Part shown: one piece after another, positions 12,204 to 16,548 of the stretch
How the letters are laid out: every line of letters starts with the position of its first letter
How positions within the stretch are numbered: the first letter of the stretch is position 1
Source: Polynucleobacter paludilacus
GTDB lineage: Bacteria > Pseudomonadota > Gammaproteobacteria > Burkholderiales > Burkholderiaceae
Length of the DNA stretch: 64,000 nucleotides
Assembly (NCBI RefSeq): GCF_018687595.1
Contig: NZ_CP061298.1
Coordinates: forward strand, 186,001-250,000
Direction: 5' to 3'
Made by a program: the position numbers and the translations under genes
The notes under the pieces: generated by a model
Database searches by the model: none
Told to the model about the DNA's origin: nothing
What the model saw: the letters and a program-made list of their open reading frames with translations, nothing else

Positions 12204-12479
12204 ATGGCAATCGCCAAGAAAAAAACCGCTGCAAAGAAACCAGCTGCTAAGAAAGTTGCAGCTAAGAAGCGTCCAGCTGCTAAGAAGCGTCCAGCAGCTA
12301 AAAAAGTAGCTGCTAAGAAGCGTCCAGCTGCTAAGAAGAAGGTTGCTGCTAAGAAGCCTGCTGCTAAGAAAGTAGCTGCTAAGAAGCGTCCAGCTGCTAA
12401 GAAGAAGGTTGCTGCTAAGAAGCCTGCTGCTAAGAAAGTAGCTGCTAAGAAGCGTAAACCAGCTGCAAAAAAAAAGTAA
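12204..12479 (+). CDS. Histone H1-like Lys/Ala-rich DNA-binding protein (0-frame product)
   Basis: This encodes 91 residues made almost only of Lys, Ala, Pro, Val and Arg, in AAKKPAAKK / AAKKRPAAKK repeats. It matches the H1-like nucleoid proteins of Burkholderiales, which bind DNA through charge and condense it. The ribosome-binding site AAGGAG and the ATG at 12204 are clear. The reading frame ends at TAA 12477-12479 directly after GCA AAA AAA AAG. The family's usual C-terminal tail is not in this frame but in the -1 frame from 12476 to 12601. The gene contains a perfect 66-bp tandem duplication. Either the short protein is real, or frameshifting or slippage makes a 132-residue form, or the A9 run carries an indel. 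Confidence 0.85.
   Translation: MAIAKKKTAAKKPAAKKVAAKKRPAAKKRPAAKKVAAKKRPAAKKKVAAKKPAAKKVAAKKRPAAKKKVAAKKPAAKKVAAKKRKPAAKKK
12318..12449 (+). repeat. Perfect 66-bp tandem duplication inside the H1-like gene
   Basis: Bases 12318-12383 and 12384-12449 are identical, each beginning AAGCGTCCAGCTGCTAAG. The unit encodes 22 residues, so copy-number change keeps the frame. Perfect identity, including codon third positions, suggests a recent duplication. Confidence 0.9.
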
Positions 12480-12671: not shown

Positions 12672-13631
12672 TTAGAAGTGAAAGCCAAAAGCAGTTTTGA
12701 ACTGGGCGCTAATCTCATCTTTGGAGGGTTTGTGGTTTTGCGGCCCTTGGTGGGTAATTTTGATGGAGCCCATTAGGCTAGCCAGTCGGCCAGTGGTTTC
12801 CCAGTCCATGCCATTTTCGAGGCCATAGAGGAGACCACCTCTGAATGCGTCGCCACAGCCGGTAGGATCAACAACTTTGGCGGCGGGTACTGGGGGAATA
12901 GCAATCTTTTTGCCGCCTGAATAAACTTCAGCACCTTCGGCACCCTTGGTCACAATCAGCGCCTTCACCCGCTCAGCAATTTTGTCTAGACTCATCCCGG
13001 TTCTTTTGGCAAGCATTTCACCTTCGTAGTCATTGACTGCAAGGTAGCTAGCCAAATCGATCAATTCTAATAATTCAGGGCCATTAAACATGGGCAAACC
13101 CTGTCCCGGATCAAAGATGAATGGGATTTCTGCGTTAGCCAATTGATGACAGTGTTCCCACATCCCTTGACGACCATCTGGGGCCACAATACCGATTTTG
13201 GCTTGTCCCTTTTTGCTTTGGGTGCGTTCGTCAACTACGCTAGAGACTAAATTGAGGTGCGATTCATTCATGGCGCCAGGATGAAAGGCCGTAATTTGAT
13301 TGTTGGATTGATCGGTCGTGATCATTGCTTGCGCTGTAAAAGCATCTTTGATCTGGCGAATATGGGTGGCATCAATCTCGAGTGCTTGGAAATGATGTAG
13401 GTAAGGATCAGCATCACCACCGACTGTTGCCATGATGATGGGATCCCCGCCGAGGAGATGCAAGTTATAGGCAATATTGCCTGCACAGCCCCCGAATTCT
13501 CGACGCATAGTGGGTACTAGAAAGGCCACATTGAGAATATGAATTTGCTCAGGAAGAATTTGATCAGCAAATTTGCCTTCAAAGTTCATGATGGTGTCGT
13601 AAGCGACTGAACCGCAAATTAAGCTGGCCAT
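12672..13631 (-). CDS. PfkB-family sugar/nucleoside kinase
   Basis: This 319-residue kinase has the PfkB/ribokinase fold. N-terminal signature-like residues are GGCAGNIAYNLHLLGG, and the C-terminal PfkB signature is DPTGCGDAFRGGLLYGL with the catalytic aspartate of GCGD. Substrate residues cannot be read from sequence; related Burkholderiales proteins are annotated as carbohydrate or adenosine kinases, so adenosine is a candidate. It lies 26 nt downstream of the prmA fusion and is the last gene of the aroQ-accB-accC-prmA run. Confidence 0.85.
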   Translation of the reverse strand: MASLICGSVAYDTIMNFEGKFADQILPEQIHILNVAFLVPTMRREFGGCAGNIAYNLHLLGGDPIIMATVGGDADPYLHHFQALEIDATHIRQIKDAFTAQAMITTDQSNNQITAFHPGAMNESHLNLVSSVVDERTQSKKGQAKIGIVAPDGRQGMWEHCHQLANAEIPFIFDPGQGLPMFNGPELLELIDLASYLAVNDYEGEMLAKRTGMSLDKIAERVKALIVTKGAEGAEVYSGGKKIAIPPVPAAKVVDPTGCGDAFRGGLLYGLENGMDWETTGRLASLMGSIKITHQGPQNHKPSKDEISAQFKTAFGFHF

Positions 13632-13657: not shown

Positions 13658-15181
13658 TTAGTGAGAAGGATAAAACAGTCGAACACGGTAGCCCGCCACT
13701 TGATTGGGCAGGGTAATTACTAGTTCAGTATGAATATTTTCTAAAGCAGGTGCGCCAGTGCGCAAAAAGTTGGGATGAAGTTCTTGAAACTGAGCAGGGA
13801 TCCATTCGGAGGGAGAAAATTCAATCGTTTGAATTACGGTTTCCTCGGGATCTGTCAAAGAAATTTCTAAATTGGGCCATAAAACAGCAATTCCAATGCG
13901 ATTGTTGATGTCAACTCTCAAAATAGATTGCTTAGAAGGATTTATAAGCCCCTCTTGAGCGTGATCGAGTGCAAGACTGGCAGAGTTGATCTTCCATGCT
14001 GAAAAATCGCTTACAGGGCGATCTATGCAGCCTAAGGCGCTACATAATTTGCGATCAATTTGTTGCAGCACAAAAAAAGCACGGTGTGAAAACGTATTTG
14101 CATTGTTATCTGAGATTGGTGCTAATGCTGGGAGTAGGGTTTGTCTAAACATATGCTCGCCAAACAAGAGAGTCAGAATCAAAAACAAGACTAACAAGAC
14201 TGGCCTAACTTTTTTTTTGAGCCCGACTAAAAAATGACCCTGAGATTTGCTTGGTAGAGTTCCCTGCAAACAAACCCATCCATCACTTTCTTTCCAGATC
14301 GATAGCTCTAGCCATTGGCGATAGGTCGCTACGACCTCATCTGCTTGGCGCGCCAAGACCCCAGACAACACAATTTGGCCGCCGGGACGGATTTTGTTGA
14401 CCAAAGCTGGCGCTAGAACTTGAAGAGGGTTGGCAAGGATGTTCGCCATCACAATGTCGTATTTGACCTCAGGTGCAAGTTCAAGCGCTCCCTCATTCGG
14501 AAGAACAAATTGAATATCGACCTGATTGATCTGGGCATTACTTCGAGCGGCGACGATCGCTTGCGGATCAATATCAGTTCCAACGACGGCAGTGCATCCA
14601 AGTTTTGCAGCCGCGATTGCCAATATGCCTGAGCCACATCCGTAATCGAGCAAGGTTTGATTAAGCAATTGAGTATGTTGCTCTAGCCAGAGCAAACAGA
14701 GGTGGGTGGTGGGGTGACTGCCAGTGCCAAACGCTAACCCCGGGTCTACTGCAAGACAAATCGCTTGAGGATCGTTCGACGGCGTCTCATGCCAAGAGGG
14801 AACTACCCAGATGCGTTTACCGATCTGAATTGGTGCAAATTGACTTTGTGTCAGCCGCACCCAATCTTGTTCTTCAACACGCTTTTCCTCGGGAGCTTGA
14901 ATCTCAAAACCCAGATCCTTTAGAGCAGCCAACAAGTTGTTGATGAAATCCGGCGCATCGGATTGATCCATTTCGGGATTGAAGAGCGCTGTGACGGATG
15001 AGCGATCCCAAGCTTGAACTTCGGGAGATAAACCAGGCTCACCATACAGCGGGTTTTCATCATAGCCACCTGCTGCGTCATCTTCTACGGTGACAGAGAG
15101 GGCTCCGAGTTCGAGCAGTGCATCCCCCAAGGGTTCTGCAATTTCAGCAACGACCGTAAAAATGAGTTCACGATAGGCCAT
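13658..15181 (-). CDS. prmA: Ribosomal protein L11 methyltransferase fused to membrane-anchored DUF3426
   Basis: The 507-residue product joins two proteins. Residues 1 to about 308 are PrmA, which trimethylates ribosomal protein L11: PGLAFGTGSHPTTH, the SAM motif LLDYGCGSGILAIAAAKLG, VVGTDIDPQA and MANILANPL. After WVCLQGT comes a short linker, KKK (322-324, coded by A9), a membrane span at about 325-345 (VRPVLLVLFLILTLLFG) and a DUF3426-like domain to the end. In related genomes the next gene is a separate DUF3426 protein with an N-terminal CxxC zinc ribbon. That ribbon is absent here. The expected topology is a cytoplasmic enzyme and a periplasmic DUF3426. accC ends 2 nt upstream. Confidence 0.88.
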   Translation of the reverse strand: MAYRELIFTVVAEIAEPLGDALLELGALSVTVEDDAAGGYDENPLYGEPGLSPEVQAWDRSSVTALFNPEMDQSDAPDFINNLLAALKDLGFEIQAPEEKRVEEQDWVRLTQSQFAPIQIGKRIWVVPSWHETPSNDPQAICLAVDPGLAFGTGSHPTTHLCLLWLEQHTQLLNQTLLDYGCGSGILAIAAAKLGCTAVVGTDIDPQAIVAARSNAQINQVDIQFVLPNEGALELAPEVKYDIVMANILANPLQVLAPALVNKIRPGGQIVLSGVLARQADEVVATYRQWLELSIWKESDGWVCLQGTLPSKSQGHFLVGLKKKVRPVLLVLFLILTLLFGEHMFRQTLLPALAPISDNNANTFSHRAFFVLQQIDRKLCSALGCIDRPVSDFSAWKINSASLALDHAQEGLINPSKQSILRVDINNRIGIAVLWPNLEISLTDPEETVIQTIEFSPSEWIPAQFQELHPNFLRTGAPALENIHTELVITLPNQVAGYRVRLFYPSH

Positions 15182-15183
15182 CT

Positions 15184-16548
15184 TTAGGCTTTACCGCGAC
15201 TAGCTGCTTGCTCTTCTAGGCGGTGCTCTAGGTAATGAATACTGGTTCCACCCTCGATGAAGTTCGGATCAAGCATCAACTCCCGATGCAGCGGGACATT
15301 GGTTGTGATGCCATCGATCACCATTTCTGAGAGAGCGATTTGCATGCGACGAATTGCTTGCTCGCGAGTATTGCCGTAGGAAATCAGTTTGCCGATCATC
15401 GAGTCATAGTTTGATGGCACTACATAGCCGCTGTAAGCATGAGAGTCAACCCGAATACCAGGACCTCCTGGCATATGCCAAGACTGAATTCGGCCAGGGC
15501 TGGGTGTGAACTTGAAGGGGTCTTCGGCATTGAGGCGGCACTCGATAGCATGTCCACGAAAGACAATATCTTTTTGACGGTAGGCTAACTTCAGACCGGC
15601 TGCAATCCGAATTTGCTCTTGCACAATATCTACACCCGTAATCATTTCGGTAACAGGATGCTCAACCTGTACACGGGTGTTCATTTCAATGAAGAAAAAT
15701 TCGCCATCTTCATACAGAAACTCAAATGTGCCAGCACCACGATAGCCAATTTTTCTGCAGGCCTCGGCACAACGCTCGCCGATCTTGGCAATCAAGCGAC
15801 GATCAATTCCAGGAGCTGGTGCTTCCTCAATCACTTTTTGGTGACGGCGTTGCATCGAGCAATCGCGTTCGCCTAACCAGATGGCATTGCCATGGGTATC
15901 AGCGAGTATCTGAATCTCAACATGGCGTGGCTTCTCTAAAAACTTTTCCATGTAAACCTCTGGATTGCCAAAGGCCCTGCCCGCTTCTTCACGCGTCATA
16001 TTGACGGCATTAATCAGGGCCGCTTCAGTATGTACCACTCGCATGCCGCGTCCACCACCACCGCCAGCTGCTTTAATAATCACTGGGTAACCAACCCGTT
16101 TTGCTGTTGCAATAATTTCTTTAGGATCATCAGGTAGGGCACCTTCTGAACCAGGTACGCAGGGAACGCCCGCTTTGATCATGGCCCGTTTGGCAGAGAC
16201 TTTATCGCCCATGAGGCGAATGGACTCCGCTTTGGGTCCGATAAAAGCAAAACCAGATTTCTCAACACGCTCTGCAAAGTCAGCATTCTCGGAAAGAAAA
16301 CCGTATCCAGGATGAATCGCCTCAGCATCAGTGACTTCTGCAGCAGAAATAATTGCCGGCATATTGAGGTAACTTAAGGGGGACGGTGGCGGGCCGATGC
16401 AAACCGCTTCATCGGCCAGCTTGACGTACTTTGCCTCTTTGTCGGCAGTGGAATAGACCACAACTGTTTTGATACCCAATTCTCGGCAAGCGCGTTGAAT
16501 CCGCAGAGCGATTTCGCCCCGATTAGCAATCAGAATCTTATCGAACAT
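15184..16548 (-). CDS. accC: Acetyl-CoA carboxylase biotin carboxylase subunit
   Basis: AccC carboxylates the biotin on AccB with ATP and bicarbonate, the first half-reaction of fatty-acid synthesis. Length is 454 residues against about 449 in E. coli. Visible motifs include the N-terminal [14 protein letters not shown], the ATP-grasp loop [48 protein letters not shown] with catalytic Glu, Asn and Arg, and the C-terminal biotin-carboxylase domain. It sits between accB (12 nt upstream) and prmA. Confidence 0.98.

Follow-up and report, generated by a model that had tools for sequence, protein, structure and literature searches.

We found that the prmA gene of Polynucleobacter paludilacus, like that of most of its genus, continues in one frame into a membrane span and a DUF3426 domain, and that the joint between the two parts carries an uninterrupted run of nine A's (A9). 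From comparison of the sequences we think it probable that this A9 is a programmed slip site, used mainly by RNA polymerase, from which a soluble PrmA and a membrane-anchored PrmA-DUF3426 protein would both arise. With somewhat less confidence, we propose that such a site splits PrmA into soluble and anchored pools across the genus, with recoding in the place of two genes, and that lineages have regained the run or moved it to another codon phase, with the default product exchanged in one of them.

A prmA-DUF3426 fusion across Polynucleobacter

The window, by which we mean the whole analysed stretch of 64,000 nucleotides of the P. paludilacus genome, carries the fused gene and its neighbors on the minus strand:

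12672..13631, minus strand: pfkB-type sugar kinase, the downstream neighbor (found there in 174 of the 178 genus loci)
13658..15181, minus strand: fused open reading frame PrmA-TM-DUF3426, 507 aa, with an ATG start and a TAA stop
13679..14191, minus strand: DUF3426 domain, residues 331-501 (PF11906), predicted to be periplasmic and without a preceding zinc ribbon
14162..14200, minus strand: core of the membrane span, residues 328-340, VLLVLFLILTLLF, predicted from sequence, with a basic N-terminal side
14191..14193, minus strand: TAG stop after one lost A or a +1 shift, product ...GLKKKLGQSC*, read from sequence
14205..14207, minus strand: TAG stop after one added A or a -1 shift, product ...GLKKKS*, read from sequence
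14210..14218, minus strand: A9 run, AAA AAA AAA, encoding KKK 322-324; proposed slip site, from sequence and conservation
14258..15175, minus strand: PrmA domain, residues 3-308 (PF06325; motifs FGTGSHPTT, DYGCGSG and NILANPL)
15184..16548, minus strand: accC (biotin carboxylase), the upstream neighbor (found there in 177 of the 178 genus loci)

The 507-residue frame has no internal stop. Its first part matches the Pfam PrmA model PF06325 over residues 3-308 (E = 1.8e-83; 280.9 bits, cut-off 22) and passes the NCBIfam prmA equivalog TIGR00406 over residues 3-303 (234.1; cut-off 183.15), and the closest solved structures to it are L11 methyltransferases (3grz; 1ufk/2nxc). By these full-length model matches it belongs to the PrmA family, with L11 methylation as its putative activity. 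The sequence GLKKKVRP then leads into VLLVLFLILTLLF, a predicted membrane span at which a low-confidence structure model (mean pLDDT 43.9; three input sequences) places a helix over residues 327-353. The DUF3426 match is located at the span (PF11906; E = 1.1e-12; 48.7 bits, cut-off 27.7) and covers profile positions 3-146 of 147. A whole-genome search returned no DUF3426 besides this one, and a consensus scan of the coding strand found no internal sigma-70 promoter. The first-pass annotation of the window had read the gene as a fusion of PrmA with DUF3426 through a membrane span preceded by basic residues, and the single 507-residue frame with its two Pfam matches confirms the fusion, as the sequence at the joint does the basic residues and the span.

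We retrieved the locus from nearly all of 186 Polynucleobacter genomes, which gave 178 distinct loci, and found one fused reading frame in 155 of them; the fusion is no peculiarity of a single genome but the state of the genus. In a tree of the PrmA part, all fused genes fell within one clade of 163, and the sister clade consisted of 15 with two genes. In these 15 species DUF3426 is encoded by a short TM-DUF3426 gene (about 142-159 residues), which starts at the prmA stop or up to 72 bases beyond it. In other Burkholderiaceae genera, where DUF3426 was found, prmA is accompanied by a second gene, whose DUF3426 protein has a CPxC...CGxC ribbon and a long linker, and the order accC-prmA-(ribbon and DUF3426)-pfkB that had been expected of relatives is indeed present. 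The separate genes we compared more closely (L205, L213 and L222) share with the fused gene their homologous domains and the order accC-prmA-DUF3426-pfkB, but have a stop between the two genes, the ribbon with its long linker, and no A9. Among the matches listed for 299 genomes of the family and 150 of the order, no fusion was found outside the genus.

Nine-base homopolymers are prone to error, and a sequencing or assembly mistake at the A9 might have created the fusion, or its frame, out of what are really two genes. Two separate genes, which had been put forward as the mark of such an artefact, do occur in the more distant relatives, but do not turn the fusion into one: 155 loci from different species share the open frame, many of them in single-contig genomes, and L109 and L125 are fused without any A-run. 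With well over 100 independently assembled species repeating the fused frame, we rejected this explanation as extremely improbable.

A zinc ribbon (CxxC...CxxC; PF13717/PF13719) is present in the outgroup DUF3426 proteins. In the fused frame a Pfam scan found none and no CxxC pair is left, and Zn_ribbon_4 (PF13717) had no match anywhere in the window's genome. Loss of the ribbon had been described as part of the merger; this does not agree with the 15-species sister clade, which already has a separate, ribbonless DUF3426. With neither the sister nor the fused clade having a ribbon, the simplest reading is that it was probably lost before prmA and the DUF3426 gene merged. Two independent losses are also possible, since the sister form also lacks the beginning of the DUF3426 profile: its matches begin at profile position 45-46, and three of four fused proteins scanned alongside match from position 1-2.

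In three loci (L108, genome G017; L101, genome G023; L036, genome G129) the DUF3426 part is disrupted by frameshifts or stops with PrmA intact. L108, from a genome of 1.55 Mb, also has A8 instead of A9, and looks like a case of decay of the second domain.

Conservation of the A9 run and of the stops beyond it

The coding (minus) strand has exactly nine A's at 14218-14210, where the plus strand reads T9. Exact A9/T9 runs number five in the entire 1.67 Mb genome, the window accounting for two, and the A9 at the junction exceeds chance. In 792 kb of genus loci there was no other sense-strand A9 outside the junction; the junction A9 of L135 lies at +983, beyond our junction search box, and was counted as that locus's own junction run. 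The other A9 of the window lies at the 3' end of a histone H1-like, Lys/Ala-rich gene (12204-12479, plus strand; terminating GCTGCAAAAAAAAAGTAA), whose exact A9, a T9 as seen from the prmA strand, is repeated in about 125 genus loci.

Between PrmA and the membrane span, the longest A-run was nine in 131 of the 155 fused genes and ten in one; the remaining 23 had shorter runs. The A9 occurs in all three codon phases (phase 1, n = 121; phase 2, n = 6; phase 0, n = 4, among them the gene of the window), in the context CAA AAA AAA A in phase 1 and GTA AAA AAA AAC or CTA AAA AAA AAG in phase 2, and its residues differ with phase (QKKS, EVKKN, LKKK). That the run recurs in three phases with different residues indicates that the nucleotide run was kept, and not one peptide; in the phase-2 genes, moreover, it lies well ahead of the membrane span. 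Twenty-three fused genes in several lineages have no A9, including that of the window's relative L003. Among the genomes compared, the window's closest relative (98% identical) has the same A9, and the next (88%) reads AAG AAA AAA, without an A9. Because these 23 genes lack the run, it must be dispensable there and an all-anchored PrmA viable.

Constancy of the length of the run proves little by itself, because a change of one base would break the fused frame. Silent sites are more informative. In the phase-1 set both Lys codons of the A9 were AAA in 121 of 121 genes, and the Lys codon three positions further on was AAA in 55 and AAG in 54; the share of AAA among all Lys codons of the fused genes was 77%. 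Parsimony on a tree of ~120 genomes counted no change at either of the two A9 Lys columns; the Gln column had 2, probably alignment offsets. The median at 92 conserved two-fold control columns was 15 changes, and few of these columns reached zero. The first base of the codon after the run was always A in this set, be the residue Ser, Thr or Arg. These comparisons indicate that the A9 is conserved beyond what the peptide needs, as slippage of the Thermus dnaX type would require.

The stops beyond the run were kept along with it. In the usual genus pattern an added A leads to KKKS* and a lost A to KKVLS*. Of the 132 genes with the run, 115 had stops in both other frames within nine codons, against 1 of the 23 fused genes without it, a difference whose significance the Fisher tests overstate because the sequences share ancestry and the tests ignore kinship. 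The run-less genes form several separate branches of the tree, and the stop pair, too, is absent from nearly all of them, so that run and stops are lost jointly. Within six codons, both frames stopped in 85 of the 132 genes with the run (64%), against a mean of 5.7% and a maximum of 46% at PrmA control positions. The -1 frame stop was the better kept of the two (within six codons in 119/132). The Leu codon that gives the +1 stop was TTA in 69 of 77 genes, in which TTA makes up 20% of Leu codons overall. Conservation of run and stops thus lends strong comparative support to the earlier suggestion that the A9 could release a soluble PrmA.

One clade (L027, L029, L072, L201 and L241) has a shorter run in place of the A9. 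In L027 and L029 this is an A7 followed by G's (CAA AAA AAG GGG), where an in-frame A AAA AAG heptamer is kept and the close -1 stop is lost.

Proposed slippage at the joint and competing readings

In the mechanism we propose, prmA fused in a single frame with the TM-DUF3426 gene downstream of it in the Polynucleobacter fusion clade, and the A9 at their joint would act as a slip site, mostly for RNA polymerase. An mRNA with nine A's would, in the frame of the window, yield the full protein, with PrmA in the cytoplasm, an anchor in the inner membrane and DUF3426 in the periplasm, and an mRNA with one A extra or missing would meet a stop a few codons on and yield a soluble PrmA with a short basic tail. 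Slippage would then set the ratio of soluble to anchored form from one gene, an equivalent of the division that the sister clade would obtain through separate genes. The first-pass annotation had PrmA tethered to the membrane, which stands in so far as an anchored form is expected; the tethering is probably not total, a soluble form being expected too where the A9 is present.

We proposed RNA polymerase as the slipping enzyme because of the precedent of Thermus thermophilus dnaX and because of the length of the run. In T. thermophilus, tau and gamma arise from dnaX by transcriptional slippage, which has been measured and gives ~50% short product (PMC1088944, PMC5009743), and in many bacterial genomes it is at a length of nine that selection against runs begins to show (PMC1088944). 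Like Thermus dnaX, the fused prmA has nine A's on the coding strand, a long product encoded by one open reading frame, nearby stops in both other frames, and a predicted short product that is the N-terminal part of the long one. It differs in gene and purpose, the proposed short product being a soluble methyltransferase and the long one its membrane-anchored form, and in that the prmA run stands in different codon phases in different clades, some of which lack it; and whereas slippage was measured for Thermus dnaX, for the fused prmA we infer it from sequence.

Three species (L132-L134) have their frames exchanged. Here the DNA frame terminates as GQLKKKLLN* directly past the A9, and DUF3426 comes into frame via one extra A. 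This out-of-frame DUF3426 has a dN/dS of 0.09-0.20 and is under purifying selection. In L116, a relative of the three, the run is A10 and the gene is in frame. Both states follow from slippage with nothing else assumed: in the three species the soluble form would be the default frame, and slippage would give the anchored form. Initiation of DUF3426 from a TTG inside prmA is possible; in L134 we found no ATG, GTG or TTG in the DUF3426 frame from the run to the end of the span, and the only start-like codons upstream in that frame are TTG inside prmA.

The same two products could be made without polymerase slippage, if ribosomes shifted into the -1 frame at an in-frame A AAA AAA. Because this heptamer lies within every A9, in any phase, ribosomal shifting could contribute or even be the main route; its short product would be identical to that from one added A, and the stop in the -1 frame is the one kept more often (119/132 within six codons). 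Such a shift would, however, need no more than seven A's in the right phase, and the genes retain nine whichever of the three phases the run is in; they also retain the +1 frame stop, for which a -1 shift has no use. In E. coli dnaX, where -1 frameshifting takes place at A AAA AAG, an A-rich site likewise gives a short and a long product, as proposed here, but the fused prmA differs in keeping nine A's instead of a heptamer, in its possible lack of a clear stem-loop, and in that none of 131 genes has a Shine-Dalgarno-like stimulator in the 20 nt upstream. Folding downstream of the run was only weakly stronger than in base-composition shuffles (mean z -1.28 in 40 genes, 15 of them below -1.5). 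The missing stimulator, the weak folding, the nine rather than seven A's and the kept +1 stop lead us to favor the polymerase, and we consider the ribosomal reading rather unlikely.

Less likely still, in our estimate, is that no recoding takes place, and that only anchored PrmA is made, with lysines that mark the cytoplasmic side of the span and are encoded by AAA as a common codon. Basic residues ahead of a membrane span are ordinary, AAA does supply 77% of the Lys codons in the fused genes, and the fusion is kept in lineages without an A9. Codon usage and topology would not, however, account for silent AAG being absent within the run yet common in the Lys codon that comes three positions later, for stops in both other frames that accompany the run and are nearly absent without it, or for a phase-2 run that sits well before the membrane span, and in L132-L134 the DUF3426 is out of frame in the DNA yet still selected.

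Possible DUF3426 partners and wider implications

Caulobacter ZitP consists of a zinc_ribbon_5 domain, a TM span and a DUF3426, which is periplasmic and recruits a pilus-assembly partner (PMC5182063). The fused protein is predicted to be bitopic in the same manner, with a cytoplasmic N-terminal part, one span and a periplasmic DUF3426, but has a whole PrmA in place of the cytoplasmic zinc ribbon and no CxxC pair. Because the DUF3426 of ZitP recruits a partner, that of the fused protein may by analogy bind a partner in the envelope.

Our literature search did not find PrmA together with transcriptional slippage. Papers found for Polynucleobacter and transcriptional slippage concern chlD or Euplotes, those found for PrmA with membrane treat other topics, and the main text of a frame-transition survey of 1106 genomes mentions neither L11 nor DUF3426. 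If our proposal of slippage is correct, prmA would join the few housekeeping genes on bacterial chromosomes in which a slip site is conserved, and its many natural variants would lend themselves to comparison (A9 in each of the three phases, A10, an A9 whose frames are exchanged, and losses). The gene offers a test of how a fusion can be tolerated when slippage gives back the free enzyme, and raises the question of why an L11-modifying enzyme should sit at the inner membrane. Annotation from DNA only would then miss one prmA product in most of the genus, and likely misread DUF3426 in the three exchanged-frame species.

In the part of the gene that encodes DUF3426, at about 13860-14035 (minus strand), synonymous change fell to about 0.34-0.83 of expectation among 120 phase-1 fused genes, a reduction that could reflect an element embedded there or an effect of the region on rate.
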